A stretch of 64,000 bases of DNA from positions 62,001 through 126,000 of the forward strand of contig JADLEK010000053.1 of NCBI GenBank assembly GCA_020846135.1, written 5' to 3'. Below are positions 22,737 through 51,921 of this stretch, one piece after another. Source of the DNA: Gammaproteobacteria bacterium. Its GTDB lineage: Bacteria > Pseudomonadota > Gammaproteobacteria > Competibacterales > Competibacteraceae. Both the position numbers and the translations under genes were made by a program. The notes below the pieces were generated by a model that did no database searches, was not told the DNA's origin, and was given only the letters and a program-made list of their open reading frames with translations. Position 1 is the stretch's first letter. Each line of letters begins with the position of its first letter.

Positions 22737-24582
22737 GGCGGGTCTGCAAATCCAGATGGGAAGCCAGCAACGCCTGTAAATCGGCGTGGAAATGGCGGGC
22801 GGCGGCGGCGGTCAGGCGATGCCGGGCATTGAGCAGGGCGCTGTAGTACAACCCGGTCAGCACCGGACGGTAACGCGGCTGGTCCGGATCGGGCAGTTCC
22901 CCCAAACGCTGCACCAGCGGATGCCGGGCGTTCAGCAACAAATCCAGCGGTTGACGCCGAAGCCGGTCGCGCACTTCACCGGCCAGTTCCGCCAACTCAT
23001 TCACCAGCAGCGACTTTTCCAGCATCTGTTCCATCTGGTCAAACGCGGTCAGCCGTTGGCCGGACAGTACCACCGCGCTCAGACTGGCGGGCTGAAATTG
23101 CCGGATTTGGGTTCGCGCCGGCGCTTCAGTCGCCGCCAACGCCCGATCCATCGCCTGTAGCAAGGGGGCATAACGACGCTGCGCCGCCGCTTCGAGCGGG
23201 GGGTACAGCAGCGAATCGTCGAGCCGATCCAGCGGTTGGAGTTCAATCTGATCGGGATGCCGGCTGATATAGCGGTGCAACAGCGTTTCATCAAAAGCGC
23301 CGCCCGCGTTGATGCCGATCACGCCATGCGCTTCACAAAGCGGGTAGAACTGGTTGGCGTCGGCGGCATGGGTGAAGAAATACAGAGGCCGTTTCCCATT
23401 GACGCCGGGCGTCTGCCGGGCGAGATAGTCGGGCAGGGTCAATTGCCCCTGACTGGTGGCGAACGGCAGGTCATCCAGCACCGCCGCGCCGAAGGCTTCA
23501 TGCTGCGCCGCCATGCCTTTGAGGGCATCCTGATGCCAGTCACACAGCCGCAGAAATCGGGGTCGGTCATGAGCCGCCAGGTTCAGCAGCGCCGCGACGA
23601 TGGTCTGCCCCAGGGCGTCGCGCAAGGCGTGATAGACCGAGTCGCGCTGCACATTGTCGCGGGCGGCGGTCGGCTGCACCTCCACGCAGTCCACGATCCC
23701 CCGCACGAACGGCGCCCACTCCGGCAACAGTTCAGGATCGTTCAGGCGAATGCCCATCCGCGCCTGGAACAGGTCCACCACCCCGCCCGCCTGCTGACCC
23801 GGCGCATAGCGGGCCGGGACGTACAAGCCGCCGAGGGTCCGGGGCTGCGGCAGGTCGAGGGGAATCACCAGCAACGGCGCGTCGGCGTACCGCTGGCTGA
23901 GAAACGCGGTCAGCAACTGCCGGCGTTCCACCGGATCGCACCAACCCGGCTCATGCCAGGGCGCGTTGACCGCATTGATCGGCCCGACCCCGTTCAGCCG
24001 GATCGGAAATGGCAACAGATCGGCATAGCGCCGCACGATCCCGCGCAGGCGTTGACCGTCGAGAAACGCGGTCTGGTTAGGCGCGAGCGTGACCACGACC
24101 CGCGTGCCGGGCGGTTGCGCAGTCGCGGGCAAGGCGGTCAGCTCATAATCTTCGCCACCCTGATTAGTCCAGCGCCAGGTCTGCGCGGCACCCGGCTTAC
24201 GGGTATAGACGTCGATGCGTTCGGCGACGACGAAGGCCGACAGCAACCCGATGCCGAATTGGCCGATGGTTGAAACCGCCACGTCCCGCGAGGCCAGTTC
24301 CTGAGTGCGACTGCCGGTGCCGGTGCTGCCGATAACGCTCAGAAATTCCTCAATATCCCGCTGATCCATGCCCGTCCCGTTGTCGCTGAAACTCAGCGTT
24401 TGGGCGCGGTCATCCACATCAATACGAATCTCCCCGTCCTGTTCACCGTCAGCGACTAGGCGCAGTTGAATGCTGTCATGGGCGTTCTGCAACAATTCAC
24501 GGATGAACACATCCGGTTCCGGGTACAGGCTTTTCGCCAGCACCTGAACCAATCCCTGAAAGCTGGCGCGCATTTTCGGCAT
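22726..24582 (-). CDS. HSP90-family (HtpG-like) ATPase
   Basis: 618 residues, ATG preceded by GAGGAG. The N-terminal GHKL domain is clear: PDVFIRELLQNAHDSIQLRL with the catalytic Glu and the Mg-binding Asn, then FSDNGTGMD (G1 box) and TIGQFGIGLLSAFVVAER (lid). The middle domain keeps FVRGIVDCVEVQPTAARDNV, like the HtpG region VVDSEDLPLNVSRE. The C-terminal part is divergent. It belongs to a subgroup distinct from housekeeping HtpG, so I do not give it that symbol. It forms a two-gene unit with the TPR-like gene. Confidence 0.85.
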   Translation of the reverse strand: MPKMRASFQGLVQVLAKSLYPEPDVFIRELLQNAHDSIQLRLVADGEQDGEIRIDVDDRAQTLSFSDNGTGMDQRDIEEFLSVIGSTGTGSRTQELASRDVAVSTIGQFGIGLLSAFVVAERIDVYTRKPGAAQTWRWTNQGGEDYELTALPATAQPPGTRVVVTLAPNQTAFLDGQRLRGIVRRYADLLPFPIRLNGVGPINAVNAPWHEPGWCDPVERRQLLTAFLSQRYADAPLLVIPLDLPQPRTLGGLYVPARYAPGQQAGGVVDLFQARMGIRLNDPELLPEWAPFVRGIVDCVEVQPTAARDNVQRDSVYHALRDALGQTIVAALLNLAAHDRPRFLRLCDWHQDALKGMAAQHEAFGAAVLDDLPFATSQGQLTLPDYLARQTPGVNGKRPLYFFTHAADANQFYPLCEAHGVIGINAGGAFDETLLHRYISRHPDQIELQPLDRLDDSLLYPPLEAAAQRRYAPLLQAMDRALAATEAPARTQIRQFQPASLSAVVLSGQRLTAFDQMEQMLEKSLLVNELAELAGEVRDRLRRQPLDLLLNARHPLVQRLGELPDPDQPRYRPVLTGLYYSALLNARHRLTAAAARHFHADLQALLASHLDLQTRHEP

Positions 24583-30918: not shown

Positions 30919-31176
30919 TCAGGCCCCGGTCCTGAGCTTGTCGCAGACAAATTCATGAACCTTGCCCAGCGTCTCAAAGGTTTCAGCGCTGATTTCGTCA
31001 TCAGCGATCTGCAGATCAAACCGTTCTTCCAGGGCGCTAATCAGCGCAACGACCGCCATGGAGTCGAATTCCGGGATGCTCCCCAGCAGCGGGGCATCCG
31101 GGCCGAGTTCCCCCAGCCGGTCACCCAGTTGTAGCATTTCGCTGATTAGCTGCCGTACTTCATCGAACTCGACCAT
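30919..31176 (-). CDS. Stand-alone acyl carrier protein
   Basis: 85 residues from ATG 31176, which has GGAG upstream; a longer start at 31248 is less likely. Helix I is FDEVRQLISEMLQ. The phosphopantetheine site is EFDSMAVVALI with the Ser in DSM, followed by ALEERFDLQIADDEI, a normal ACP helix II-III. It is not the fatty-acid ACP, because no fab genes are adjacent. It is the last gene on the minus strand after three TPR-methyltransferase genes, 114 bases downstream of them, and could carry an acyl group for that set; this is inference. Confidence 0.8.
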   Translation of the reverse strand: MVEFDEVRQLISEMLQLGDRLGELGPDAPLLGSIPEFDSMAVVALISALEERFDLQIADDEISAETFETLGKVHEFVCDKLRTGA

Positions 31177-31290
31177 CGAGATCGTCTCCAAGAGTGAAAA
31201 AACCTTGCGCGAAGCCGGTGCAAGCGATTTGCCGTCATCTGCGCCCAAAGGGCGTCAAGATAACGGCGGCGGCGGATGGAATCCAGCAAT

Positions 31291-32694
31291 TCATGCCACA
31301 GCATCCTCACCGGGACGTTGCGCCAGCATCACATAGCCGGCAACCGGCTCGCCGGCTTCCAGTCGAAGCGCTGCGGGGGCCATTGCCCGAAGTTTCAATC
31401 CGGATGCTGTCAGCGTCCGCTGCACATAGTCAGCAGTATGGCTATAACGACCACTCTGGTTTAACCGGAAGCCATTGGGCGCTGTTTCTCCGGTCGCCTG
31501 CTCCACCGTAAACGCCAGCCAGCCGACGGGATGCAAGGCATGAGCGGCCGCGTTCAACACCGACTCCAGATTGCCGAAATAAATCAACGTATCGGTGGAC
31601 GCAATCAAGTCATAGCTCGCTGGCCGTTCGGTCAGAAACGCGGTCAATTCCGCCACGACCAACTCATCATAGCTGCCCCGCTGCCGGGCTTTATCCACCA
31701 TGCCGGGCGACAAATCCACTCCGGTCAGATGGCGCGCCCAAGGCCGCAGCAAGGGTCCACATAAGCCGGTGCCGCAACCCGCATCCAGCGCCCGCCATTG
31801 ACCCGCCGGCGCTCCCGCCACTTCAGCCAGTTGTTCAGCAATCAATGCAGGCGCCCGGTAAGCGAGTCCAGCCAGGGCTTCGTCAAAAGAATCCGCATAT
31901 CTGTCAAATAAATCAGCCACATAAGCATCGGCCGCCCGCATCGGCGCCTCCTGACCAAACCAGGCTGCCAGGCGATGTTGAATGATCGGATCGCCCGGCA
32001 TCAAACTCTGCCAGTGCTGCAGCAGGACCAGCGCCTGTTCCGCACCGCCACGCCGGAATATCGCATCGCCGATCAGGTTCCGCGCTTCCTCGATCCGGCA
32101 GTGGTTATGCAGCAGCGTCGCCAGCAAGGTAATGGCCGCATCATGGGCCAGATTGCCCTCACAAGCGGCGGCTAATTCAATGATCGCTTCTTCGTCCCGG
32201 CCCCATTCCGCCAGCGCCGAACCGAGTCGGTAGTGAAGGTCTGGATCGTGTGGGCGCGAGAGTTTGGCTTGCCGCCAAACCGCGACCGCTTCTGGCAACC
32301 GCCCCAGCGCCCGGAATACCGCGCCCAAGGCGATGCAGGTTTCCCCATCGCCAGGTCGGAGCCGGATGGCGTGGGCAAAGGGGGCTACCGCTTCTTCATT
32401 GCGGCGCTGCGCGAGCAGTATCGCGCCGAGACGGGCATAGGTCGCGGCGTCAGCCGGGGCGATGCGGATCGCCTGCCGGATGGTCTGCTCCGCCTGAGTC
32501 CACTGCCCGCGTTGTTGCAACAGCATCCCGAGCAGATTCAGCGTTTCGACATGGTTGGGCTGGATCGTCAAAATCTGCTGACACAGGGCCTGGGCTTCAA
32601 CCAGGTTGCCCTGGCGTTGCCGGTCTCGCGCCTGAAGGAGCCATGAATTGATCAGGGCTGGAGATGGATTAAATGGGGAGTCAGCGTTGCTCAT
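31291..32694 (-). CDS. TPR-methyltransferase paralogue 1
   Basis: 467 residues. Residues 1-250 are TPR repeats (NSWLLQARDRQRQGNLVEAQ onward, with repeated GRLPEAVAVW-type units). A class I SAM-dependent methyltransferase follows: motif I ALDAGCGTGLCGPLL at 302-316, then LTGVDLSPGMVDKARQRG and DLIASTDTLIYFG. It matches the predicted TPR-containing methyltransferases of COG4976. No target is known. It overlaps paralogue 2 by four bases (ATGA) and is closest to it in sequence. It lies downstream of the T6SS gene clpV on the same strand. Confidence 0.8.
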   Translation of the reverse strand: MSNADSPFNPSPALINSWLLQARDRQRQGNLVEAQALCQQILTIQPNHVETLNLLGMLLQQRGQWTQAEQTIRQAIRIAPADAATYARLGAILLAQRRNEEAVAPFAHAIRLRPGDGETCIALGAVFRALGRLPEAVAVWRQAKLSRPHDPDLHYRLGSALAEWGRDEEAIIELAAACEGNLAHDAAITLLATLLHNHCRIEEARNLIGDAIFRRGGAEQALVLLQHWQSLMPGDPIIQHRLAAWFGQEAPMRAADAYVADLFDRYADSFDEALAGLAYRAPALIAEQLAEVAGAPAGQWRALDAGCGTGLCGPLLRPWARHLTGVDLSPGMVDKARQRGSYDELVVAELTAFLTERPASYDLIASTDTLIYFGNLESVLNAAAHALHPVGWLAFTVEQATGETAPNGFRLNQSGRYSHTADYVQRTLTASGLKLRAMAPAALRLEAGEPVAGYVMLAQRPGEDAVA

Positions 32695-34133
32695 GGCATC
32701 GCCTGCTCACCATCAGGATGGGTCGCTGGTCTGGCCGCCATCACCAGCCATCCAGCGACCGGTTGATCGTATTCCAGCCGCAGCGTCACCCGATCCAGCG
32801 TCGCCAGCGTCAGGCCAGCCAGTGTCAGCATCTGCCGTACATAATCAGCAGTATGGCTATAACGACCACTCCGGTTCAGGCAAAAACCGTCCGGCGTCAC
32901 CTCTGCATCCGCCGCCTCCACCGTGAACGCCAGCCAACCGCCTGGCCGCAACGCCACCGCCGCTGCGGTCAATACCGGTCCCAGTTCGCCGAAATAGACC
33001 AGCGTATCGGCAGACGCGATCAGATCGTAGGCCGCTGGCCGCTCCACAAGAAATGCAGTCAGTTCGGCCACCGCCAGATCATCGTAATCGCCGCGCTGCC
33101 GGGCCTTGTCCACCATCCCCGGCGACAGATCAACCCCGGTCAGATGGCAGGCATAAGGCCACAGCAACGGAGCGCACAGACCGGTGCCGCAACCTGCGTC
33201 CAGAATCTCCAGCGTCCCGTCAGGTGGCCCCAGCGTCGCCGCGATGGCCTCAGCGATCAATTCCGGGGCGCGGTATTGGAGTCCCTGCAAATCCTCATCG
33301 AACTGATCGGCATATTGATCAAACAGCCGGATCACATAGGCGTCAGCGGCGCGCGGTGGAATGTCCTGACTAAACCACGCCGTTAGGAAGTGCTGGGCCA
33401 CCGGATCGTCGGGCGTCAGCATCAGCCAGTCGCGCAACAGGGTCTCGGCTGCCGCCGTTGCCCCCCAGTCTAAAATGGCGCTGCCGACGACCTGGCCGGC
33501 ATCAATGATCCGGCCCTGACGGTGCAACAGCGTTGCCAGCAGGGTGATCGCCTGAAGGTGATTGGGATTGCCCTGGCGGGTGATTTCCAGGGCGGCAATC
33601 GCCTCTTCAGCTTGACCCTGTTCCGCCAGCGCCAAACCGAGCCGGTAATGCAGGTCGGGATCGGCAGGACGCAGAAGGCTGGCTTGCCGCCAGGCCATCA
33701 CCGCTTCGGCCAGTTGACCTAACTCCCGGTAGGCATCACCCAGTTGAATCTGAACGTCCGCATCGTCAGCACGGAGCCGGAGGGCATGACTGAAAGCGGC
33801 AACCGCTGCTTCATGGCGGCGCTGTGCGGCCAAGGTAGCGCCAAGGTTGGCGTAGGCCGTGGCGTCGCCCAGCGCACTCTGGATCGCCTGCCGGATGGTT
33901 TGTTCGGCCAAAGCCAGCCGCCCTTGCTGGAGCAGCAGCATTCCGAGCAGATTGAGCGCTTCGGTATGGCGGGGCTGAACCGTCAGAATCCGCCGGCACA
34001 GCGCCTGTGCTTCACCCGGATTACCTTGGCGTTGCCAGTCCCGCGCCTGGATCAGCCAGACGCCGAGAGTCGCCGCCGAGACCGCCGGAACTGCTGGGCC
34101 AAGCTGGGCAGGGGGTTCGTTATCGTCATGCAC
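32691..34133 (-). CDS. TPR-methyltransferase paralogue 2
   Basis: 480 residues, same architecture as paralogue 1: TPR helices with LLGMLLLQQGRLALAEQTIR, a linker with FDQYADQFDEDLQGLQYRAP, then methyltransferase motif DAGCGTGLCAPLL and LTGVDLSPGMVDKARQRG. The C-terminal SGRYSHTADYV is identical to paralogue 1 and the underlying DNA is also nearly identical there, pointing to a fairly recent tandem duplication. Eleven bases separate it from paralogue 3. Substrate unknown. Confidence 0.8.
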   Translation of the reverse strand: MHDDNEPPAQLGPAVPAVSAATLGVWLIQARDWQRQGNPGEAQALCRRILTVQPRHTEALNLLGMLLLQQGRLALAEQTIRQAIQSALGDATAYANLGATLAAQRRHEAAVAAFSHALRLRADDADVQIQLGDAYRELGQLAEAVMAWRQASLLRPADPDLHYRLGLALAEQGQAEEAIAALEITRQGNPNHLQAITLLATLLHRQGRIIDAGQVVGSAILDWGATAAAETLLRDWLMLTPDDPVAQHFLTAWFSQDIPPRAADAYVIRLFDQYADQFDEDLQGLQYRAPELIAEAIAATLGPPDGTLEILDAGCGTGLCAPLLWPYACHLTGVDLSPGMVDKARQRGDYDDLAVAELTAFLVERPAAYDLIASADTLVYFGELGPVLTAAAVALRPGGWLAFTVEAADAEVTPDGFCLNRSGRYSHTADYVRQMLTLAGLTLATLDRVTLRLEYDQPVAGWLVMAARPATHPDGEQAMP

Positions 34134-34144
34134 GGGAGGCGCTC

Positions 34145-35509
34145 TTAGCCGTTGACCAACGTCGGTTGATAAGCCATGGCCAACAGCCCGGCCACCGGCC
34201 GTTCGCTCTCCATGCGCGGGGTCACCGGCTCCAGGGTCGCCAGCGTCAAACCGGTTTCGGCCAGAGTCCGGCGCAGATAGGTCTGGGAGTGCCGGTAACG
34301 ACCGCTGAGTTCAAGGCTGAAGCCGACCGAGGTTTCGGCGTCAGCAATTTCCTCCACCGTAAACGCCAGCCATCCCCCCGGACGCAAAGCGGTGGCGGCG
34401 GCGACAAACAGCGGTTGCAGATCGCCGAAATACACCAGGGTATCGGCAGACACGATCAAATCGCAGGTTGCGGGCCGTTCCGCCAGGAACGCAGTCAGTT
34501 CGGCCACGATCAACTCATCATAGCCGCCCCGCGCCCGCGCCTTCTCAACCATCCCCGGCGATAGATCGATGCCGGTCAATCTGTGGGCATAGGGGCGCAA
34601 CAGCGGTCCGCACAAGCCGGTGCCGCAACCGGCATCGAGGACCTCCAGCGATCCATTGGGCGGTCCCAGCGCGGCGGCCACGGCCTGGATGATCAGCGCC
34701 GGAGCCTGATAAGCCAGGCGCTGCAAGTGCTGATCGAAATCGTCAGCCATGTCGTCAAAGATGGTCTGAACATAGTCATCCGCTGCTCGCCCCGGCACCT
34801 CGCATCCCGAACTGGCCGCCAGCATGTGTCGGGCCGCCACATCGTCCGGATTCCGCTCCAGCCAGCGCTGGAATAACTCAGCGGCGTCCTCGCGACGGTT
34901 CAGCTTGTAAAAGAGCAGGCCCAGCGCCTTGTAGGTCCGAAGGTGATCGGGATTCAGGCGCAAGGCTTCCTGGTAAGCCACCATCGCTCCAACATAATCA
35001 CCCTGCGCCAACCACGCGGTCGCCAGATTAAAATGCCCCTCTGCCCATCCGGGCGCTAACGCCGTCGCTTGCTGGCAAGCGGTGACTGCCTCCTCGATCT
35101 GGCCGATTTGAGTCAGGATGACGCCGAGGTTGCCATGAGCGCCCACATTGGCGGGCGCCAGTTCAATAGTCCGGCGGTAAGCGTCCGCAGCCTCTTCCGG
35201 TTGCTTGAGCGCTGTCAGTACATTACCCAGGTTATTCCAGGCATCGGCGTACTGTGGATTCAGTTCCAGCGCCCGCCGGATCAACTCGGCGGCGGCTTCG
35301 TGCTGGCTGCGCTGCGCCGCCAGCACCCCGAGAAAGTGGAGGGCTTCGACTTGTTGCGGATCGCGCTGCAATACCTGCCGATACAGCGCTTCCGCCTCGC
35401 TGAGCTGACCTCGTTGCTGGGCCTGAATCGCCTGTTGCAGCCACTGGGCCAATTGTTCCACGCTGGGACCGGCCCCGCTGGCCAGCGCCCTACGCTGCTT
35501 GCGGTTCAT
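34145..35509 (-). CDS. TPR-methyltransferase paralogue 3
   Basis: 454 residues from ATG 35509, chosen because MNRKQRRA is a common start of TPR proteins; an upstream ATG at 35545 would lengthen the overlap with the previous gene. TPR units (WNNLGNVLTALKQPEEAADA and similar) are more regular than in the other copies. The methyltransferase has LDAGCGTGLCGPLLRPYAH and LTGIDLSPGMVEKARARG. It ends SGRYRHSQTYLRRTL, diverged from copies 1 and 2, so it is the older branch of the trio. It overlaps the beta-flower gene by 20 bases. Confidence 0.8.
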   Translation of the reverse strand: MNRKQRRALASGAGPSVEQLAQWLQQAIQAQQRGQLSEAEALYRQVLQRDPQQVEALHFLGVLAAQRSQHEAAAELIRRALELNPQYADAWNNLGNVLTALKQPEEAADAYRRTIELAPANVGAHGNLGVILTQIGQIEEAVTACQQATALAPGWAEGHFNLATAWLAQGDYVGAMVAYQEALRLNPDHLRTYKALGLLFYKLNRREDAAELFQRWLERNPDDVAARHMLAASSGCEVPGRAADDYVQTIFDDMADDFDQHLQRLAYQAPALIIQAVAAALGPPNGSLEVLDAGCGTGLCGPLLRPYAHRLTGIDLSPGMVEKARARGGYDELIVAELTAFLAERPATCDLIVSADTLVYFGDLQPLFVAAATALRPGGWLAFTVEEIADAETSVGFSLELSGRYRHSQTYLRRTLAETGLTLATLEPVTPRMESERPVAGLLAMAYQPTLVNG

Positions 35510-36170
35510 CGGGTGCGTCCTGTGGCAGGGGAGGATGCTGCTCACGCTGCAAGCGGAAGGGCAAACTGCGCCCCGCTTCTCTCATCCAGCGCAGCAGCAA
35601 CGAATTGCCGGTAAATTCGATGATCCAGTAGCGCCGATCCGGCTCTTCAACGCCTTGCCAGTGCAGCCACAACTCCTCACCCCGCAATGCCCAGGTCCCG
35701 GATGCGATTTCGGTCTGGTCCGTCGCGGCCCATTGAAAGCCGCTTTCCCGATCGAACTCCAGGGACTCACTAGCGGAACTCCAGCGCCCAACCAGCTCGC
35801 CGGAAGTTGGCATCCGCAACAGATCTTCCAGCGGGTCCCGGCAGCCCAGCAATGGTCTATGCAACGGTCGCGGCGACGGTGGCAGCGGCGGTTGAGCCGG
35901 CACTGGCGGCACTCGCGGGGTCCGGCGCTCAGGCAGCATCCGCAAGTCGTAGGCCAGATAATGCTCGGCCATAACCTGACCCAACAGCCCCCCGTCATAT
36001 TTCCACACTGGTCCATCAGGTTCGCGCCAGCCCAGGTAACGACCGAACCGATCGTATAAATACTCGCCCTGGAAAAAGCCCGCATAAGCCCCGGTCCACT
36101 TGAAGACCGGGATGGCGATGTCGTCGCCCTCCTGATCATCGCCCGCTTTGCCGAATCCGCTTGGGATCAT
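35490..36170 (-). CDS. 4-fold beta-flower-like protein next to clpV
   Basis: 226 residues. The N-terminal 70 residues contain YAGFFQGEYLYDRFGRYLGW and VWKYDGGLLGQVM, matching the pattern of small beta-flower domains. A proline-rich linker (about 82-108) leads to a second beta-rich part with GRWSSASESLEFDRESGFQW and SGTWALRGEELWLHWQG, a lipocalin-like pattern. No enzyme motif is seen. It lies 35 bases after clpV, the position usually held by vgrG in H1-type T6SS clusters, so it may belong to the secretion system as an accessory or cargo. That is inference. Confidence 0.55.
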   Translation of the reverse strand: MIPSGFGKAGDDQEGDDIAIPVFKWTGAYAGFFQGEYLYDRFGRYLGWREPDGPVWKYDGGLLGQVMAEHYLAYDLRMLPERRTPRVPPVPAQPPLPPSPRPLHRPLLGCRDPLEDLLRMPTSGELVGRWSSASESLEFDRESGFQWAATDQTEIASGTWALRGEELWLHWQGVEEPDRRYWIIEFTGNSLLLRWMREAGRSLPFRLQREQHPPLPQDAPDEPQAA

Positions 36171-36205: not shown

Positions 36206-38890
36206 TTACTCAAAGCTGTAGGCAAACTCGCCATCCCGCACCGACAGTTGCACCCGCGCCACCGGCTGGCCCTCCACCATCCGGGTCAGGAACTCCTGAC
36301 TGATGGTAGGTAGAACGGTATTGGTCAGAATGGCGTCCACCATCCGCCCGCCGCTTTCCAGTTCGGTGCAACGGCTGACGATCAACTTGACCACCTCGTC
36401 GTCATAGCTGAACGGCAGCTTATGATTTTCCAGAATCCGCTTCTCGATCCGGCGCAGTTGCAGACGAACGATGTCGCCGAGCATCTCGTCGCTGAGCGGG
36501 TAGTAGGGAATAGTCACCAGCCGGCCCAGCAGCGCCGGCGGGAACACTTTCAGCAGCGGTTCGCGCAGGGCTTTGCCCAGGCCATCGACCTCCGGCAGCA
36601 GTTCCGGGTCCTTGCACATACCCATGATCAGGTCGGTGCCGACGTTGGTGGTCAGCAGAATCAGGGTGTTCTTGAAGTCGATCAGCCGGCCTTCGCCATC
36701 CTCCATCCAGCCCTTGTCGAATACCTGGAAGAAAATCTCATGCACGTCGTGGTGGGCTTTCTCAACTTCATCCAGCAGCACTACGCTGTACGGCCGCCGC
36801 CGCACCGCCTCGGTCAGCACCCCGCCTTCACCGTAGCCGACATATCCGGGAGGAGCGCCCTTCAGGGTCGAAACGGTGTGCGCTTCCTGGAACTCACTCA
36901 TATTGATAGTGATGACGTTCTGTTCACCGCCATACAGCGCCTCGGCCAGCGCCAGTGCGGTTTCGGTCTTGCCCACCCCTGACGGGCCAGCCAGCATGAA
37001 CACGCCGATGGGCTTGTTGGGATTGTCGAGCGCGGCGCGAGAAGTTTGAATTCGCCGGGCGATCAGGTCCAGAGCGTGGCGCTGGCCGATAATCCGCCGG
37101 TTGAGAATATCGGCCAGACTCAGCACGGTTTCGATTTCATTCTTGACCATCCGCCCGACTGGAATCCCGGTCCAGTCCGCGACCACTGAGGCGACCGCCT
37201 GGGCGTCCACACTGGGCAGAATCAGCGGCGATTCGCCTTGCAGGGCGTGCAATTGGGTCAGCAGTTCCTTGAGTTCGACCAGCCGGGTTTGCCGTTCCAA
37301 ATCCGCTTCGGCCTCCGGCGCAACTTCAACCTTGCCGCCGTCGCCGCGCAATTTGGCCCGCAGCTCCAGAATCCGGTCAACCAGCCCTTTCTCTTCCTGC
37401 CAGCGGGCGTCGAGTTGCGCCAGGCGCGTTTCTTCGACCTGCAACTTCTCGCTGGCGTCGGCTTGGCGTTGGGCGGTCTCGATGCCGATGGCGGTTTCGC
37501 GGGCGATAATCTCCAGTTCAACCTTCAGCCCTTCAATTCGGCGGCGGCAGTCCTCCACTTCAGCGGGCACCGCGTGGAGGCTGATGGCGACCCGGGCGCT
37601 GGCGGTATCGAGCAGACTGACCGCCTTGTCCGGCAACTGGCGGGCCGGGATGTAGCGGTGCGACAGCTTGACCGCCGCCTCCAGCGCTTCATCGAGAATC
37701 TGCACCCGATGGTGTTGTTCCATAGTGGAGGCCATGCCGCGCATCATCAGGATGGTCTTTTCTTCGCTCGGCTCGCCGATCTGCACCACCTGGAAACGAC
37801 GGGTCAGGGCCGGGTCTTTCTCAATGTGCTTTTTGTATTCGGCCCAGGTGGTGGCGGCGATGGTGCGGAGCTTGCCCCGGGCCAGCGCCGGCTTGAGCAG
37901 GTTGGCGGCGTCGCCGGTGCCGGCCGCGCCGCCGGCGCCGACCAGAGTATGCGCTTCGTCGATAAACAGGATGATCGGCTTGGGCGAAGACTGCACCTCG
38001 TCAATCACCTGACGCAGTCGGTTCTCAAACTCGCCCTTCATGCTGGCCCCGGCCTGGAGCAGGCCCACATCCAGCACCCGCAGCGTCACGTCCTTCAACG
38101 GCGGCGGCACCTCGCCGGCGGCGATACGATGGGCAAAGCCTTCCACCACTGCGGTTTTTCCGACCCCCGCCTCGCCGGTCAGGATCGGGTTGTTCTGGCG
38201 GCGGCGCATCAGAATGTCGACGATCTGGCGGATTTCCTCATCGCGCCCAACGATCGGATCGAGTTCACCCTTGCGCGCCCGCTCGGTCAGATCCACCGAA
38301 AACCGCTGCAACGCCTCCTGCTTACCCATTTGCGCCGGAGCTAGCGCATCGCTGGCCTCGCCGGGCGCCGCGCCGCCGCCCACTTGCGAACCGTCGGTCG
38401 CGCGCAGCCCGGTTTCCGGGGATGCCGCCACGATGTCGCCGAACTGCCCCATTAGATCATCCGGCTTGATCCGGTCGAACTCGCGGGAAATCGCCAGCAG
38501 CGCATTGCGCAAATCCGGGGTTTTCAAGACCCCGACCAGCAGATGACCGGTGCGCACCTGCGAATCATTGAACAACAGCGTCGCGTAGACCCAGCCTTCC
38601 TTAACCGCCGCGTCAACATGCGCCGACAGATCGGAAATCGAGGTAGCGCCGCGCGGCAGACGATCCAGAGCGTCAGTAAAATCCTTGGCCAATCGCGAAG
38701 GATTCAAGCCAAAATGCTGAATCGCCCGGTGCAGGTCGGAATCCGGTAATTGCAGAATCTGGTGCAACCAATGCACCAGCTCCACATAGGGATTACCCCG
38801 CAGCTTGCAAAAAACCGTAGCGCTTTCAATGGCTTTATAGCCGAGACTATTCAGCTTTCCAAACAAGGCGACGCGACTGATTTCGGCCAT
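36206..38890 (-). CDS. clpV: T6SS AAA+ ATPase ClpV (TssH)
   Basis: 894 residues. A Clp N-domain (1-160) precedes two AAA+ modules: Walker A GEAGVGKTAVVEGFA in the first and GPSGVGKTETALALAEAL in the second, with NMSEFQEAHTVSTLKGAPPGYVGYG between its motifs. The N-terminal ISRVALFGKLNSLGYKAIES and the divergent N-domain separate ClpV from ClpB. It disassembles contracted TssB/TssC sheaths for reuse. Last core gene of the minus arm, 93 bases after tssG. Four perfect GGCGAAA heptamers (on the plus strand) precede its start. Confidence 0.94.
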   Translation of the reverse strand: MAEISRVALFGKLNSLGYKAIESATVFCKLRGNPYVELVHWLHQILQLPDSDLHRAIQHFGLNPSRLAKDFTDALDRLPRGATSISDLSAHVDAAVKEGWVYATLLFNDSQVRTGHLLVGVLKTPDLRNALLAISREFDRIKPDDLMGQFGDIVAASPETGLRATDGSQVGGGAAPGEASDALAPAQMGKQEALQRFSVDLTERARKGELDPIVGRDEEIRQIVDILMRRRQNNPILTGEAGVGKTAVVEGFAHRIAAGEVPPPLKDVTLRVLDVGLLQAGASMKGEFENRLRQVIDEVQSSPKPIILFIDEAHTLVGAGGAAGTGDAANLLKPALARGKLRTIAATTWAEYKKHIEKDPALTRRFQVVQIGEPSEEKTILMMRGMASTMEQHHRVQILDEALEAAVKLSHRYIPARQLPDKAVSLLDTASARVAISLHAVPAEVEDCRRRIEGLKVELEIIARETAIGIETAQRQADASEKLQVEETRLAQLDARWQEEKGLVDRILELRAKLRGDGGKVEVAPEAEADLERQTRLVELKELLTQLHALQGESPLILPSVDAQAVASVVADWTGIPVGRMVKNEIETVLSLADILNRRIIGQRHALDLIARRIQTSRAALDNPNKPIGVFMLAGPSGVGKTETALALAEALYGGEQNVITINMSEFQEAHTVSTLKGAPPGYVGYGEGGVLTEAVRRRPYSVVLLDEVEKAHHDVHEIFFQVFDKGWMEDGEGRLIDFKNTLILLTTNVGTDLIMGMCKDPELLPEVDGLGKALREPLLKVFPPALLGRLVTIPYYPLSDEMLGDIVRLQLRRIEKRILENHKLPFSYDDEVVKLIVSRCTELESGGRMVDAILTNTVLPTISQEFLTRMVEGQPVARVQLSVRDGEFAYSFE

Positions 38891-38983: not shown

Positions 38984-40015
38984 TTATTCACAATACATGA
39001 CGGCGTCCAGCTTCAGATCGTCGGCGTCGCGGGCCAGCGGCTGACTGCTGAGCCAAGTCGTCCAGCCAAGCCGGGTTCCCTCGCCCAGTTGCAGGGGCGG
39101 AACCTCTTCCTTCTGCAAAATCAGGTTCACATCCCACAGCAGTTCGTCGCCGACGTAGTTCCGTACCCAGGCCACCAGTCGTCGCAAGCTGTCGCTGCCT
39201 GGCAGGAACCGCTGAAACTCTTCCAGATTCATTGGCCCCATGACGATCCGGAACCGGTGCTGGCAATCCCACACCCGCTCGCCGATCACCGCTGTCATCC
39301 CGAGCAGGCCGGTCGCGGGAGTCTCGCCGAGCCGGCACCTGCTGGCCTGATCCAGGGATAGCCAGTGACCCACGAAGGAGTCCACCCGCACCGGCAACTT
39401 GAAGAAATCAGCCAGAATTGCCTCCAGCCCTTCAGGATTGCGGGTCTGGCAGGCGAATCGTCCGGCGTAATGAAATTTGGCCAGGTCTGGCGCAGCATCG
39501 CGGTTCCACAGCGACGGCATGCCCAACCCAAACTGGGCGCCAACGTAGACATTAAAACGGTCGGTTTCGGGCCGGTCAAAGCTGACCGTCGGTTGGGTAT
39601 CGGCCCAGGCCCGGTAGAACAGACTCAGAATCCGGTGATGAAACAGGTCAGCAAACCGGGCGAACGTCCGATCACCATGCTGACGCGACCGATCCCGCGC
39701 ATACTCGGTCAGATGCACCGGCAACGGTCCATGCGGTCCGAACAGGCCCAAAAAGTATTCGCTCAGGCGCGGCGGACGCTCGTCATTGCCCGGATCAAAT
39801 GCAGTCAGGGTGGACGGCGCAAACGCCATCGACGGCTCCTGGGCCAGTCGCACCGGATCGTCCGCCAGGCGCGTGGCTTTACCCAGCCGGGGCCGGTCAC
39901 GGTAACGACATTCCAGCCGCCGCAACGCCTGGAAAAAATGAAAGGCATACGGTTTTTGCCGCAGCGCTTCCAGCAGATCTACAGGGTCTGCCGTCGTCCG
40001 ATCCGGGCTGGCCAT
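38984..40015 (-). CDS. tssG: T6SS baseplate protein TssG
   Basis: 343 residues. The start ALRQKPYAFHFFQALRRLEC, then DDPVRLAQEPSMAFAPSTL and YFLGLFGPHGPLPVHLTEYA, is the standard TssG (VasB/ImpH) signature; LGMTAVIGERVWDCQHRFRI comes later. TssG joins two copies of TssF in the baseplate wedge. It overlaps the end of tssF by 37 bases, so the pair is translationally coupled. Confidence 0.95.
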   Translation of the reverse strand: MASPDRTTADPVDLLEALRQKPYAFHFFQALRRLECRYRDRPRLGKATRLADDPVRLAQEPSMAFAPSTLTAFDPGNDERPPRLSEYFLGLFGPHGPLPVHLTEYARDRSRQHGDRTFARFADLFHHRILSLFYRAWADTQPTVSFDRPETDRFNVYVGAQFGLGMPSLWNRDAAPDLAKFHYAGRFACQTRNPEGLEAILADFFKLPVRVDSFVGHWLSLDQASRCRLGETPATGLLGMTAVIGERVWDCQHRFRIVMGPMNLEEFQRFLPGSDSLRRLVAWVRNYVGDELLWDVNLILQKEEVPPLQLGEGTRLGWTTWLSSQPLARDADDLKLDAVMYCE

Positions 40016-41856
40016 CGAATGATCTCGCCGCGCTCGGTCGATTTGACGACCGTTTCGGTGAAGGAGTTAATGGAGGCGTATTTGGCGAAGAACTGCTCCA
40101 GCACCGCGCCCAGCAGGAAAATGCCCACACCCTCGAACGCCGCCTCATCCAGGGTCACGGTGACTTCCAGACCCCGGGCGAAGGCGATCGGACCCGGAAT
40201 GGGCGCTCGCCGGGTAATGGGCGCAGTCCGCACCGAACCAACCCCGTCAATCTGCTTGCGGACACTCGATTCAGCCAGATCGCCGTACAGCGCCAGCAGT
40301 TCCCGTAGCGCCCCAGCCCCTTGCCGAGCATCAGTATCAGTGATCGACAGATAATTGAGACTCAGGTGGCTGATCAAACGCCAGGCGGTATCGCCATGGG
40401 CATGGGAGGGGCGGGGCTGGGTCGGGCCGGCCAGACAGCGCACCACGCTGACCGGCGCCCCGGAGGTCAGGGTGAAATCGGTATCGCCCCGTCCAACCGG
40501 CATGTGCAGCGGCAAATCACGGTTGGTGCATAGCGTCGAAACCGCCAGTTGCCGCAAGTCGCCACGATAAGGCGTCTCATCGGCATCGACCAGCGCCAGA
40601 TAAACTTCGCCGCCAATATAGCTGGAGCGCGGACCGACCCGTCGTTGCCGATCGGACAACAGGCGCGGCAGACGATGTACGGTGTAAAACGACCGCTGGC
40701 TGCATTGACTGAGCCGGTCGTAGCTGGCGTAAAACGGCAAAAATTCCTGCTCCTCGTTATCAGCGCCAATGCCGGTCACGCCGGTGACCTGGTAAGTCTC
40801 GAAATCCAGCGGTCGGGTCCGATCCGGAATGACATGATGTTCGGCGACCTGATCGCTCAGATGAATCCGATCGGCCCGCTTGGGAAACAGATTGATCGCA
40901 GGCGTGCTGAACAGCGCGAAGTTGGCGGCAGCGACTGCATTCTCCAGCGCCGGATCGGCCCGGTTGAGCAGAATCAGCAGCTCCAGCTCCGGCCCGGCGC
41001 AGCGCCGCACCACCGGCCCCAGTCCGCCCAGTTCGACAAACAGATAGCGTTGCGGGAAGGCAAAGTACTCATGCAGCAGCCGGTAGCCCTGGAAGGACAC
41101 CGGCGGGCAAGGCAACAGCGCCTGGCTGTCCTCGAACCCCAGCCGCTGAATGGAACCGTCCGCCAGCCGCTCAAACCAGGGCGCCGGGCGTTGACCAGGC
41201 CGCGCCACCACCATCACGGCATTGGTCAGCAACTGCTCATGCAACCGGGCCGGCAAAGCGTCGCTGCCATTCAGAAACAGCGGCAGACGATCCAGCGCCA
41301 GCTTGTTAAACACCAGCCCCGGCAAGGTGGTTCGCAACCGCAGCCGAATCCCGGCGCGAACTTTCGACAACTCCGGCAGATCTAGTTGCGCGACGGGTTC
41401 CTTGCCGGCGAAATAGTGTGCTTCGGTCAGCTCCAGCGGCCACAACGTCACATCATGGGCCGTCCGGTATTGGCAGGAGGTCTGTTCGCCCTTGCCGAGC
41501 AACCCATGCAGTTCGCTACCCCGGGGAATGACAAACCCTGCTTCAAGTGCGCCCTCGGTCGGATCGGGCTGGAAACGGGCGACCAGCATTGAGGGGGTCG
41601 GCGCCAGAAAGTAGGGATAGATAATTTCCAGCAGGTGCTGGGTAAAGCGCGGGAACTCGGCATCCATCTTGAGCTGCACCCGCGCGGACAGAAAGCTGAA
41701 CCCCTCCAGCAACCGTTCGACATAAGGATCAGCGCACTCGAAGCCTTCCAGCCCCAGCCGCCCGGCGATCTTGGGGAATTCGCGGGCGAATTCCCCACCC
41801 AGCTCGCGCAGGTGTTGCAGCTCCCGGTTGTAATACTCCAGCAGGCGGGGATCCAT
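39979..41856 (-). CDS. tssF: T6SS baseplate protein TssF
   Basis: 625 residues. The N-terminus MDPRLLEYYNRELQHLRELG and the following EFAREFPKIAGRLGLEG are diagnostic for TssF (VasA/ImpG). Central YFLAPTPSMLVARFQPDP and the C-terminal RGLEVTVTLDEAAFEGVGIF also fit. It is a wedge component binding TssG, TssE and TssK. Its ATG overlaps the tssE stop by one base (TGATG). Confidence 0.96.
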   Translation of the reverse strand: MDPRLLEYYNRELQHLRELGGEFAREFPKIAGRLGLEGFECADPYVERLLEGFSFLSARVQLKMDAEFPRFTQHLLEIIYPYFLAPTPSMLVARFQPDPTEGALEAGFVIPRGSELHGLLGKGEQTSCQYRTAHDVTLWPLELTEAHYFAGKEPVAQLDLPELSKVRAGIRLRLRTTLPGLVFNKLALDRLPLFLNGSDALPARLHEQLLTNAVMVVARPGQRPAPWFERLADGSIQRLGFEDSQALLPCPPVSFQGYRLLHEYFAFPQRYLFVELGGLGPVVRRCAGPELELLILLNRADPALENAVAAANFALFSTPAINLFPKRADRIHLSDQVAEHHVIPDRTRPLDFETYQVTGVTGIGADNEEQEFLPFYASYDRLSQCSQRSFYTVHRLPRLLSDRQRRVGPRSSYIGGEVYLALVDADETPYRGDLRQLAVSTLCTNRDLPLHMPVGRGDTDFTLTSGAPVSVVRCLAGPTQPRPSHAHGDTAWRLISHLSLNYLSITDTDARQGAGALRELLALYGDLAESSVRKQIDGVGSVRTAPITRRAPIPGPIAFARGLEVTVTLDEAAFEGVGIFLLGAVLEQFFAKYASINSFTETVVKSTERGEIIRWPARIGRRQTL

Positions 41857-42371
41857 CAGCGCTCCCGGGACCGTGAGGATTCTTCAATCAGCACCTGGCC
41901 GCTTTCTAGGTCAATCTCGGTTTTCAGATACAACTGCAAGGGCAGCGGCTGCGCCCACAAGTCACCTTCGATCTCGAAGGTCAGGGCGTTGTGGCTCATC
42001 CGTTCCTCAGTCAGTTCGGTGCGCACCCGCAGCGATTGCCGGAAAATGCGCGGCTCGAAGTCAGCAACGGTCTGGCGCAGATTGCGCTCCAGCGCCTCCA
42101 TGTCAACGCTGCGCGCGGTCGCACCGGTCAGCGGCGGCAATCCGAAGTTGATGACCGAATGGGCTGCGAATGGGTAACGCTCAACCTCCTCACGCTCGGG
42201 CAACCGGGTCGAGTTGAATAGCCAGCCCAAATCACGCAGGACGCATTCACGCAGGCGGTTGGCGGACAGCACCCGCTGATCACGCGACTCTTGCTGCTGA
42301 TCCGGCTCATCATCGGTCAACCGATCCAGCAGCGAGGGCTGTAGACGCTCTTTGGAGGTCAGTTCAGCCAT
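41856..42371 (-). CDS. tssE: T6SS baseplate protein TssE (gp25-like)
   Basis: 171 residues from ATG 42371, which opens MAELTSKERLQPSLLDRL, the normal start of TssE; longer forms run into the upstream gene. LRECVLRDLGWLFNSTRLPE and YPFAAHSVINFGLPPLTG are gp25 features, and an ERNLRQTVADFEPRIF segment precedes the beta part. It links the baseplate to the sheath. It overlaps the end of tagJ by eight bases. Confidence 0.93.
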   Translation of the reverse strand: MAELTSKERLQPSLLDRLTDDEPDQQQESRDQRVLSANRLRECVLRDLGWLFNSTRLPEREEVERYPFAAHSVINFGLPPLTGATARSVDMEALERNLRQTVADFEPRIFRQSLRVRTELTEERMSHNALTFEIEGDLWAQPLPLQLYLKTEIDLESGQVLIEESSRSRER

Positions 42372-43188
42372 CGCCGGCTTCGGCCTCCGCCCCATCCACG
42401 CCGGTTTGCAGATCGATCCGCCGCACGTCCAGCAGCGGGTATTCACCCTGGTCAGTGGTCAGAATGCGTTGCCCCAGCCCCAGCCAGATTCCGGCTGCAC
42501 ATTCCTGCCATTCCGTCTTGCGCCCCAATTGCGTCAGCGGATCGGCGCTGTCGGGCGACCCGGGGTAACGAGCCGGAATCAGGCCAACGGCTTCGCCTCC
42601 GTTAGCCCAGGTGAATTGCGCCGGCATCCAGACGTAATCGCGCAGATCAGTGGGCGGCTCCAGCACAATGGTTTGAATCCGCTGAAACGGAATCCAGTAA
42701 TAACGACCGTTGACAATCGCCTCCAGTACCGGCCCCAGGCGTTGGTCTGCGTCGGCAATCCACTCAAACGGCTGTTCATCCAGCGCCCCAGTCGTCGCTG
42801 GCGCGGCCTCAAACGCCTGCTCGCGCACCGTCTGGGCCTGGGCATAATGACCCGCAGCAGTCAGTCGCAAGGCTTCCAGCACCAGCGCCGCCCACGGCTC
42901 CGGATCGCCAAACACCAGCGGCGAGCGCCGTCCGGCGAAAACATCAGCCCGGAATGATTCGCAACGCAGCGCCTCCCGGTAGGTCTGCACCATCGGCAAA
43001 GTTGAGGCGTCCATCTCGCCCAGCACGTTCAACTGGTTCAGCGCCCGATCCCAGCGGCCCAGCACCGCCAGCAACTGGAACAGAAAAATCCGGAGCTTGG
43101 GGTTGGCGGGTTCCTTGCGCACCTGGGTTTGCAACTCGGCCAGGGCCTCCGCCAGACGACCTTCACGCAGGCTTTGTTCAGCTAACAT
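42364..43188 (-). CDS. tagJ: T6SS accessory protein TagJ (ImpE family)
   Basis: 274 residues from ATG 43188, which starts MLAEQSLREGRLAEALAELQ directly in the helical N-domain and has AGGGG upstream. Further ImpE features are FLFQLLAVLGRWDRALNQLN, GRYYWIPFQRIQTIVLEPP and YVWMPAQFTW. TagJ binds TssB in the Pseudomonas H1 system and marks a subset of T6SS. It lies between hcp and tssE, as in that cluster. Confidence 0.92.
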   Translation of the reverse strand: MLAEQSLREGRLAEALAELQTQVRKEPANPKLRIFLFQLLAVLGRWDRALNQLNVLGEMDASTLPMVQTYREALRCESFRADVFAGRRSPLVFGDPEPWAALVLEALRLTAAGHYAQAQTVREQAFEAAPATTGALDEQPFEWIADADQRLGPVLEAIVNGRYYWIPFQRIQTIVLEPPTDLRDYVWMPAQFTWANGGEAVGLIPARYPGSPDSADPLTQLGRKTEWQECAAGIWLGLGQRILTTDQGEYPLLDVRRIDLQTGVDGAEAEAGDG

Positions 43189-43313
43189 GGCCACGCCCCT
43201 TTCAGTTTCAGTTATCGCCAGTAAAAACGATTCCGCGCTTCCAGGAGAGTATCCCGAAAACGCGGATATTTCATGACCGGATGACCCGTCGAACAGCCAT
43301 CCGTCCGGCCGCA

Positions 43314-43808
43314 TCAAGTCTTCTTGTTCAGCTTGACGTCGTAGCCCAGCTTGCCCTTCGACTTCAGAGCGCCGGTCGCATCCTGCTCAAAGTACTCCAG
43401 CTCGATCTTGCTGAAATTGAGCGAGCAGCTTTCGTGCGGCAATTCAGCGCCGGAACTGCCAGTCTGGTAGGAACTGACCAGAACATCGGACATGGTGATT
43501 TCCAGGAATTTCGCCGGGGTCTCCTCGCCAACCGATTTACGCTGGGTAAAGATGGCGGTCTTGAAATGCTTGCCCGTCGTACAGAGCGTCATCAAGGGTC
43601 CCGAAGCGGTGTTCATGGTCATGGTGAAATGGAAATCCTGCATATTCACCGTGCCGGTCCCCATACCGCCACCATGGGACGCGGACCCCGAGTTGGTGCA
43701 ACCCCAGCTCCAGGACAGCAACTGAACGCAATCCTCAAACCCTTTTTCCTTAGATTCACCCTTCACGTTGCCCGATTTCAGATCCAGAAAAGCATCTAAT
43801 CTTGCCAT
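43314..43808 (-). CDS. hcp: T6SS inner-tube protein Hcp
   Basis: 164 residues from ATG 43808, with GAGGTGAT ideally placed upstream; the 15 codons before it are not Hcp-like. The protein reads MARLDAFLDLKSGNVKGES, then CVQLLSWSWGCTNSGSASHG, MQDFHFTMTMNTASGPLM and KIELEYFEQDATGAL, matching the Hcp1 family. Hexamers stack to form the tube and carry effectors. It is separated from tssC by 244 bases holding a terminator and a hairpin, so it probably has its own promoter. Confidence 0.95.
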   Translation of the reverse strand: MARLDAFLDLKSGNVKGESKEKGFEDCVQLLSWSWGCTNSGSASHGGGMGTGTVNMQDFHFTMTMNTASGPLMTLCTTGKHFKTAIFTQRKSVGEETPAKFLEITMSDVLVSSYQTGSSGAELPHESCSLNFSKIELEYFEQDATGALKSKGKLGYDVKLNKKT

Positions 43809-43945
43809 GACAATCACCTCGCGGTTTGGAAGAAACAGTGGATTGAATGACAATCCAGCATGAACGGATCGGCGCCCTTTCCAAACTCAGACTTGCTATC
43901 TTCAGAAAGTTTTGCCGACTTGCCTTACTCTAAGCACATCACATG

Positions 43946-43972
43946 CCAATAAAAAACAATTGTTTTTATTGG
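43946..43972. promoter_or_regulatory. AT-rich hairpin in the tssC-hcp spacer
   Basis: CCAAT and A5-CAA pair with TTG-T5 and ATTGG around the centre CAATTG, with a single bulged A. The stem spans 43946-43972. It is immediately downstream of the T-run of the terminator at 43973-43996 on the minus strand and about 138 bases upstream of hcp. It may be part of the terminator, an RNA-stability element or an operator. Confidence 0.4.
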
Positions 43973-43996
43973 AAAAACCCAGGAAGTTATCCCTGG
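43973..43996 (-). terminator. Rho-independent terminator after tssC
   Basis: Read on the minus strand, CCAGG and CCTGG (43996-43992 and 43983-43979) form a five-base GC stem with an eight-base loop, followed by G and T5. It lies about 57 bases beyond the tssC stop and would partly separate tssBC from hcp. Confidence 0.5.
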
Positions 43997-44052
43997 ACGG
44001 CCCATAATGAACCCCTTAGGGCCACTCTGAATCGTCCATCACGCCATCCTAT

Positions 44053-45555
44053 TTAACCGCCCTTGGCCGAAGGCAACTTAGAAACCAGCCGCAGCGACAC
44101 CGTGAGTCCCTCCAACTGGTAATGCGGACGTAAAAAGAACTTCGAGGTGTAGTAGCCAGGATTCCCTTCCACTTCTTCCACGATCACTTGCGCATCAGCC
44201 AAGGGTTTCAAGGCCTTGGTCTCCTCGCTGGAAAAAGCCGGATTGCCGTCCACATACTGATTGATCCAGTTCTGCAACCAGAGTTGCATGTCGTCGCGTT
44301 CCTTGAACGAACCAATCTTGTCGCGCACCATACATTTAAGGTAGTGCGCGAACCGGCAAACCGCAAACAGATAGGGCCAGCGCGCCGACAGGTTGGCGTT
44401 AGCGGTCGCATCCGGATCTTCGTACTCCGCCGGCTTTTGCAGCGACTGCGCGCCAATGAAGGCGGCAAAGTCGGAGTTTTTCTTGTGAATCAACGGCATG
44501 AAGCCGTTTTTAGCCAGCTCGGCCTCGCGCCGGTCACTAATCGCGATCTCGGTCGGGCATTTCATATCGACCCCGCCATCGTCGGTTGGGAAGGTGTGGG
44601 TCGGCAGATTTTCCACCGCGCCACCCGATTCAATGCCGCGAATCCGGGTACACCAGCCGTACATTTTAAACGCGCGGGTAATATTGGTCGCCATCGCATA
44701 GGCCGAATTGGCCCACACATACCGGCTGTGATCCGCCCCCTCGACATCTTCCTCAAAATCGAAATCCTCGACCGGGTCGGACTTCGCCCCATAAGGTCGC
44801 CGCGCCAGGAAGCGGGGCATCGCCAGCCCGACATAGCGCGAGTCCTCGGATTCACGCAGCGACCGCCACGCCGCGTATTCCGGCGTCTGGAAAATCTTGG
44901 TGAGATCGCGGGGGTTGCTGAGTTCCTGCCAGGAATCCATCTGCATAACAGTCGGCGCGGCGGCGGCTAGAAACGGGCAATGCGCAGCAGCAGCGTTCTG
45001 GGACATCTCCCGCAGCAATTCCACATCGGTCGGGCTGTGATCGAAGTAATAGTCGCCGACCAGACAGCCAAACGGTTCGCCGCCAAACTGGCCGTATTCT
45101 TCTTCGTACATCTTCTTGAAGATCGGACTCTGATCCCAGGCGGTGCCCTTGAACTTCTTGAGGGTCTTGTGCAGGTCCTTCTTGGAGATATTCAGCACCC
45201 GGATTTTCAGCATCTCGTCGGTTTCAGTGTTGTTGACGAGGTAGTGCAGACCGCGCCAGGCGCTCTCGACCTGCTGAAAATCAGGATGGTGGATGATCAG
45301 ATTCATCTGTTCGCTCAGCTTCTGGTCAATCGCCGCAATCATCGATTCGATCGACTTGACCACGTCCCGCGAAATCAGCGTCGTGTTCTGCAAGGCCTGC
45401 TCGGCCATAGTACGGACGGCGTTCTCGACCGCTTCCTTGGCCTGATCGGACTTGGGCTTGAATTCCCGTTGCAGCAACGAGGAAAAATCGCCGCCTTCCA
45501 GAGTTTGAGTTTCGACGCCGGGCTGGGCTTGGGCAGTAGCATTAGGTTCGGCCAT
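44053..45555 (-). CDS. tssC: T6SS sheath large subunit TssC (VipB)
   Basis: 500 residues. Diagnostic segments are WRGLHYLVNNTETDEMLKIR, FGCLVGDYYFDHSPTDVELL, PYGAKSDPVEDFDFEEDVEG, FAHYLKCMVRDKIGSFKERD and, at the end, EEVEGNPGYYTSKFFLRPHYQ. TssC packs with TssB into the contractile sheath. It starts three bases after the tssB stop. Confidence 0.97.
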   Translation of the reverse strand: MAEPNATAQAQPGVETQTLEGGDFSSLLQREFKPKSDQAKEAVENAVRTMAEQALQNTTLISRDVVKSIESMIAAIDQKLSEQMNLIIHHPDFQQVESAWRGLHYLVNNTETDEMLKIRVLNISKKDLHKTLKKFKGTAWDQSPIFKKMYEEEYGQFGGEPFGCLVGDYYFDHSPTDVELLREMSQNAAAAHCPFLAAAAPTVMQMDSWQELSNPRDLTKIFQTPEYAAWRSLRESEDSRYVGLAMPRFLARRPYGAKSDPVEDFDFEEDVEGADHSRYVWANSAYAMATNITRAFKMYGWCTRIRGIESGGAVENLPTHTFPTDDGGVDMKCPTEIAISDRREAELAKNGFMPLIHKKNSDFAAFIGAQSLQKPAEYEDPDATANANLSARWPYLFAVCRFAHYLKCMVRDKIGSFKERDDMQLWLQNWINQYVDGNPAFSSEETKALKPLADAQVIVEEVEGNPGYYTSKFFLRPHYQLEGLTVSLRLVSKLPSAKGG

Positions 45556-45558
45556 GGC

Positions 45559-46083
45559 TCATGACTCCTCGGCAGCGGGCTTGGCGCTGTCTTGCGGCTT
45601 GGGCGCGGCAGCCAGCGCTTGCAACAGACTCGGATCATTGAGGACGTTGGCGATCAGTTCTTCGGCGCCAGTCTTGCCGTCCATATAGGTCATCAGATTG
45701 GTAAGCTGCTCGCGGGCTTGCAACAACCGGTTCAGGGAATCGACCTTGCGGGCCACCGCCGCTGGCGAGAAGTCGTCCATGCTCTCAAAGGTGATGTCCA
45801 CGCTCAGATCGCCCTCGCCGGTCAGGGTGTTGGGTACCCGGAACGCGGCGCGGGGTTTCATCGCTTTCAGGCGGCTGTCGAAGTTGTCCACGTCAATTTC
45901 GAGGAACTTGCGATCCGCCACCGACGCCAGCGGATCAGCCGGTTTGCCCGACAGATCGGCCATCACCCCCATCACGAACGGTAACTGCACTTTTTTCTGC
46001 GAGCCGTAGACCTCAACGTCGTACTCGATCTGGACGCGCGGCGCCCGGTTACGGGCAATAAATTTCTGGCTGCTCATCGCCAT
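45559..46083 (-). CDS. tssB: T6SS sheath small subunit TssB (VipA)
   Basis: 174 residues, ATG 46083 with GAGAGGT eight bases upstream. It has SSQKFIARNRAPRVQIEYDV, LPFVMGVMADLSGKP and RKFLEIDVDNFDSRLKAMKP, the standard TssB sequence; the C-terminal helix that ClpV recognises in homologues would be LNDPSLLQALAAA. It is coupled to tssC by three bases. Confidence 0.96.
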   Translation of the reverse strand: MAMSSQKFIARNRAPRVQIEYDVEVYGSQKKVQLPFVMGVMADLSGKPADPLASVADRKFLEIDVDNFDSRLKAMKPRAAFRVPNTLTGEGDLSVDITFESMDDFSPAAVARKVDSLNRLLQAREQLTNLMTYMDGKTGAEELIANVLNDPSLLQALAAAPKPQDSAKPAAEES

Positions 46084-46164
46084 TGGAACTTACCTCTCTC
46101 TGGAATCACGGTATTGGTAACGCCCAGCGGGAATCCGGACCATACAACCAACTATTGTAGTCGG

Positions 46165-47259: not shown

Positions 47260-47436
47260 AGCTGAATGCGCCTCATGCAAAATTGTAGGTTCAAGTATAG
47301 TCGGCTTGGCGCGGCGATCCGGGCTGGTATAGACTGAAAATTGTAGAACTAAAAATTGTTGTAGCGATTGCGCCGGATCGATATCGCTCATCCGCCCGCA
47401 CGGTTGAAACGGCGTCCCTGCCCACGGAAAGCGTGT
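47260..47436. promoter_or_regulatory. Divergent control region between tssA and tagH
   Basis: 177 bases between the two T6SS arms. On the plus strand TTGGCG (47306-47311) and TATAGA (47328-47333) with 16 bases between could be a weak sigma70-type promoter for tagH. On the minus strand TATACT (47299-47294) could serve tssA, without a clear -35. AAAATTGTAG occurs at 47279-47288 and 47337-47346, and a variant (AAAAATTGTTGTAG) at 47351-47364; these direct repeats may bind a regulator. Confidence 0.4.
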
Positions 47437-50541: not shown

Positions 50542-50547
50542 CGAACC

Positions 50548-51912: not shown

Positions 51913-51921
51913 GTCGGGACT

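Follow-up and report, generated by a model that had tools for sequence, protein, structure and literature searches.

TPR-SAM methyltransferases linked to type VI secretion in Competibacteraceae, with a possible role in modifying a secretion client

Why three consecutive methyltransferase genes should stand behind clpV in a type VI secretion system (T6SS) cluster is the question raised by the 64-kb stretch analysed here (the window; positions 62001–126000 of contig C53 from a 3.7-Mb genome of the family Competibacteraceae). On its minus strand, the run tssA-tssB-tssC-hcp-tagJ-tssE-tssF-tssG-clpV is continued by a gene for a beta-flower-like protein, by the methyltransferase genes MT3 (34145–35545), MT2 (32691–34133) and MT1 (31291–32694), and by a gene for an acyl carrier protein (ACP). 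The initial annotation had claimed this gene content, strand and order within a T6SS cluster, and all of it was borne out. Each of the three methyltransferases carries tetratricopeptide repeats (TPRs) and a Methyltransf_11/25 domain (Pfam PF08241/PF13649, above cut-off). We found that they belong to a clade of TPR-methyltransferases linked to T6SS, and tentatively, at somewhat less than an even chance, we read MT1–3 as TPR-guided S-adenosylmethionine (SAM)-dependent methyltransferases that would modify a T6SS client before firing, a substrate and a chemistry that we infer.

The genomic context was defined by class-wide and phylum-wide homologue searches and by targeted searches of the families f107 and f181, which look like large gammaproteobacterial families, with the flanking genes checked. 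The class-wide search returned mostly unlinked, more distant relatives, and together with the phylum-wide search it also returned T6SS-linked cases. At 31/31 f107 and f181 loci with vgrG detected, the order was clpV, effector genes, TPR-methyltransferase and vgrG on one strand, and the methyltransferase lay less than 1 kb from vgrG in 22 of those 31. All 33 f181 genomes with a high-scoring methyltransferase carry clpV, compared with 65 of 198 overall (hypergeometric P 9e-20, kinship ignored; 10 genera involved), and in the f181 cases on the same contig the methyltransferase was downstream of clpV by 2–9 kb on the same strand (31/31). Individual loci vary this theme: clpV, a PLC-like gene, a methyltransferase and vgrG in f181; clpV, a lipase gene, two adjacent methyltransferases and, a few genes further on, vgrG in f161; hcp and a methyltransferase 6 nt apart in f107; and vgrG together with PAAR and two methyltransferase genes in a row on the Chromatiaceae plasmid pTs485. 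Among Competibacteraceae genomes with the methyltransferase, 22/25 show linkage to clpV, the remaining 3 having the gene on other or incomplete contigs. The methyltransferases of this clade are linked to T6SS, and the whole-genome comparison contradicted the notion that they occur mostly away from T6SS loci with no link to clpV.

The initial annotation had further placed the methyltransferases at the vgrG position, which agrees with their usual place just before vgrG in other families. MT1–3 lie downstream of clpV and on its strand; vgrG follows the methyltransferases directly in f107, f181 and the Competibacteraceae genera g7 and g8, and we detected no vgrG homologue in the 64-kb window, the remainder of the window's own genome not having been searched for one. 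Because vgrG follows the methyltransferases in g7, g8, f107 and f181, the window arrangement is probably a derivative in which vgrG was lost or moved.

A tree of 110 sequences, comprising 64 T6SS-linked, 15 unlinked within the clade and 31 outside it, gathered all 64 linked sequences in one group of 79 (SH-aLRT, the Shimodaira–Hasegawa-like approximate likelihood ratio test, 96), and none of the 31 outside sequences was T6SS-linked. The window methyltransferases fall within this clade with SH-aLRT support of 96–99. Across the 64 linked sequences, the SAM-site residues (DxGCGTGLC, DL, DT, YFG, E and GR/H) vary little or not at all, and the ratio of nonsynonymous to synonymous substitution rates (dN/dS) of the methyltransferases is 0.15–0.20. 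The Pfam matches, the invariant DxGCGTG and the AlphaFold2 model of MT3 (predicted local distance difference test score, pLDDT, 89.6), in which a TPR superhelix precedes the catalytic domain, identify the enzymes as class I SAM-dependent methyltransferases. Foldseek searches with this model matched best mainly to TPR superhelices, including those of OGT and SPINDLY, and gave little information on the substrate. Competibacteraceae genomes carry one to three copies, MT3 being the type most broadly present in the family; MT1 has orthologues in several genera, and MT2 has one in a near relative (L010).

MT1 and MT2 had been described as recently duplicated, a claim that did not hold: they share 65% DNA and 61% protein identity, with a single exact run longer than 20 nt (27 nt), whereas the L010 orthologues are nearer than the paralogues (72.5% DNA identity for MT2 and 67.7% for MT1). 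In the tree, MT2 branches outside or beside an MT1 clade whose members come from several genera (SH-aLRT 99), so that the duplication is old and a recent one was rejected. The companion claim that MT3 stands apart was confirmed, MT3 being the more divergent copy. Within one locus, MT3 shares 32–42% identity with MT1 or MT2 in the TPR arm and 52–65% in the catalytic domain, while the two parts evolve evenly among close orthologues. Such a contrast would be expected if the copies shared their catalysis and differed in their clients; the same pattern could arise if the copies had swapped catalytic domains.

The usual place of the gene is the clpV-vgrG interval, with vgrG immediately downstream and effector genes alongside. 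In the mechanism that we propose, the TPR arm of its product would grip a particular T6SS client in the cytosol, namely VgrG or PAAR of the tip, Hcp of the tube or a bound effector. The catalytic domain would then methylate that client ahead of assembly or loading. In the lineage of the window, where vgrG no longer adjoins, copies with different arms were kept, which would let the enzymes serve several clients. The beta-flower-like protein, encoded by a gene that overlaps MT3, could be a lineage-specific helper, and the ACP would be a neighbour retained from an exosortase-A-associated operon. The architecture and the divergence of the arms would fit a TPR-guided, protein-modifying principle. 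The closest parallel is the flagellin O-glycosyltransferase FlmG of Caulobacter, whose TPR arm binds flagellins and is required for their modification before export (PMC7591256). FlmG and the TPR-OGT/SPINDLY proteins likewise join an N-terminal TPR superhelix to a C-terminal modifying domain; they differ in that the catalytic domain here is a class I SAM methyltransferase rather than a glycosyltransferase, and in the linkage of the methyltransferases to T6SS. The selection of clients by the TPR part, established for FlmG, is proposed for MT1–3. We favour methylation of a T6SS client because the SAM site is invariant, the TPR arms diverge and FlmG provides a precedent.

A further likeness comes from the clade itself. 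Members from Azospirillum lie beside flagellin; at one such locus (L152:1-11107), which also encodes FlbT and several TPR proteins, the methyltransferase might take part in flagellin modification. Another member, from a different class, follows a two-partner secretion pair of haemagglutinin-like protein and transporter together with a caspase-like gene (L142:539-10493). These loci suggest that the TPR-methyltransferase family may serve secreted or surface proteins generally, T6SS most often. Extended to several proteobacterial families, methylation of tip, tube or effector by a TPR-methyltransferase would be a maturation or loading step, with the Competibacteraceae copies amplified for several clients; we regard this as an appreciable possibility that falls short of probable. 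If true, it would add a conserved T6SS accessory enzyme so far undescribed. A gene fixed before vgrG in several families, its SAM site intact, is a candidate for a methylation step in type VI secretion and for the way in which tips and effectors are matched. To our knowledge, no protein methylation step has been described for this system. A description of the TPR-methyltransferase gene was not found in the open PubMed Central literature searched, that on Competibacter T6SS included, and the methyltransferases named in other T6SS papers are different proteins.

Several observations weigh against client methylation. For 15 clade members, the flanking sequence retrieved (short in some cases, cut by a contig end in one) contained no T6SS gene, indicating that the clade is not T6SS-exclusive, and only about half of the f181 genomes with clpV have the methyltransferase gene, which makes it accessory. 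The TPR arms of MT1 and MT2 are 50–59% identical, diverging less from each other than from MT3. Enzymes with this SAM methyltransferase fold can also have small molecules or lipids as substrates. Finally, the ACP is under selection beside clpV, which leaves room for a T6SS role of its own.

In the best-surviving alternative, the TPR-methyltransferase would work chiefly as an adaptor or chaperone in the loading of VgrG or of an effector bound to it, like DUF4123 (Tap-1), EagR/DUF1795 and DUF2169 proteins, with methylation secondary. The genes for these adaptors likewise neighbour vgrG and effector genes and are variably present; DUF2169 genes occur near the methyltransferases, whose own position is immediately before vgrG with effector genes around, and TPR folds commonly hold protein clients. 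The methyltransferase fold, however, is unrelated to that of the known adaptors and retains an intact enzymatic site, whose full conservation over 64 sequences argues that catalysis matters. Moreover, the methyltransferase gene is constant while the neighbouring effectors vary (class 3 lipase, PLC-like proteins, M35 and calpain peptidases), and we consider a predominantly adaptor role unlikely. Candidate effectors lying between clpV and the methyltransferases at three loci (L069:9473-13618, L080:4378-5481 and L081:985-1461) comprise a class 3 lipase, an M35 metallopeptidase, a calpain-like peptidase and a small protein, the last with a homologue at L078 that carries a HELAHADG motif.

It is also conceivable that the methyltransferase genes simply ride along in a variable T6SS island and that their substrate is a housekeeping or other one, since the clpV-vgrG interval is a hotspot of gene turnover and relatives outside the clade sit elsewhere in genomes. 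The gene order shared by 10 f181 genera and by many in f107, the structure of the clade and the dN/dS of 0.15–0.20 all run counter to this view and make it improbable. We judged it distinctly improbable that the methyltransferases are instead secreted T6SS effectors acting in the target cell. They do lie in the interval where effectors occur, and a review of Xanthomonadales T6SS mentions only TPR-repeat proteins near orphan VgrG/PAAR genes, naming them as candidates (PMC6653060). The length and catalytic domain of the methyltransferases, unlike those of polymorphic toxins, are conserved over families, and two or three paralogues are found together. The methyltransferase gene had no recurring immunity-like neighbour, and an effector-immunity pair was rejected on this ground.

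The ACP gene (30919–31176, minus strand; PF00550) was listed as an open reading frame from a TTG at 31248, which is 72 nt upstream of the conserved MVEFDEV start at 31176. It matches the exosortase A-associated type, known with the TIGR03100/TIGR03101 hydrolases, in the motif GSIPEFDSM, and 34/39 Competibacteraceae genomes have a single copy of such an ACP. Among relatives that bear exosortase A hydrolase 2 (hydr2, TIGR03101), the ACP is directly upstream of hydr2 in 11/12, and hydrolase 1 (hydr1) then comes after hydr2 wherever inspected. The ACP-hydr2-hydr1 group is located away from T6SS in g2, g7 and g8 and after clpV or a methyltransferase in g13, G013, G014 and G030, and in g10 and g13 the ACP comes directly after clpV without methyltransferases. 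The presence of hydr2 tracks exosortase A (XrtA). In the genus of the window and several others, both hydr2 and exosortase A are absent and the ACP is retained next to T6SS; the window's own genome, in contrast to the described exosortase systems, yielded no hydr2 and an exosortase only as a sub-threshold match. The orphan ACP keeps its DSM serine and has a dN/dS of 0.08–0.25, indicating purifying selection. No ACP was detected beside the methyltransferases in the flanks of other families' loci, and the ACP is probably outside the methyltransferase unit. On the simplest reading, the T6SS cluster came to adjoin an exosortase-associated operon, of which the ACP is one surviving gene. The ACP shows how a gene of another pathway that has outlived the rest of its operon could mislead by its synteny.

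The initial annotation had raised an acyl-modification module of methyltransferases and ACP, which gave way as the default reading to the pairing with hydr2 in 11/12 relatives that bear it and the lack of a detected ACP beside other families' methyltransferases. That MT1–3, the beta-flower-like protein and the ACP together form an acyl- or lipid-modification pathway is highly improbable: the genes are adjacent in several Competibacteraceae genera, the ACP persists under selection after loss of XrtA and hydr2, and the catalytic domain weakly resembles the malonyl-ACP methyltransferase BioC, but the ACP travels with hydr2-hydr1 away from T6SS, occurs after clpV without methyltransferases and goes undetected in other families, and the BioC similarity is far under cut-off. 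An identity with BioC was rejected on a score of about 44 bits for the catalytic domain against a family cut-off of 342.

The beta-flower-like protein (35490–36170, minus strand) has an N-terminal beta-flower-like domain and a beta-rich C-terminal half. Its match to the 4-fold beta-flower family PF21784 (PMC10584680) is weak (23.7 bits against a gathering cut-off of 25, E 6e-5, residues 22–102), falling below the threshold for membership, and the C-terminal half is an addition to that family's domain. The structure model was poor (pLDDT 40.6) and unsuited to fold search. The gene was present in 13/39 Competibacteraceae genomes, restricted to part of the family, and none was detected beside methyltransferases in the flanks of other families. 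It starts 35 nt after clpV and overlaps MT3 by about 20 nt, counted from the conserved MNRKQRR start of MT3 at 35509, which is probably the true one. The gap between MT3 and MT2 is 11 nt and MT2 overlaps MT1 by 4 nt; the spacing is tight as far as MT1, and the ACP, from its conserved start, lies 114 nt beyond. A scan for promoters and terminators performed no better than chance level.

The T6SS cluster of the window is real and nearly complete, with tssA, B, C, E, F, G, K, L, M, hcp and clpV all together. The clpV (tssH) gene (36206–38890, minus strand; TIGR03345, 1271 bits against a cut-off of 885) bounds the variable clpV-vgrG interval on its upstream side; tssG, F, E, tagJ, hcp, tssC, B and A precede it on the same strand (38984–47754), and the divergent half on the plus strand encodes an FHA protein, tssK, tssL, tssM, tagF and pppA (47368–57295). 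Positions 22726–24582 of the window encode an HSP90-family protein scoring under the cut-offs of both the HtpG and PRK14083 families. At two other loci (L143:9206-10989 and L224:7384-9368), a TPR-methyltransferase is directly or closely downstream of hcp with no other T6SS genes nearby. In L010 (590–6645), mfd, cysM and an rlmD-like gene precede clpV in place of tssG, and the ACP group of g7 (L070) is likewise flanked by cysM/rlmD-like genes, which may be a trace of rearrangement or of an ancestral site.

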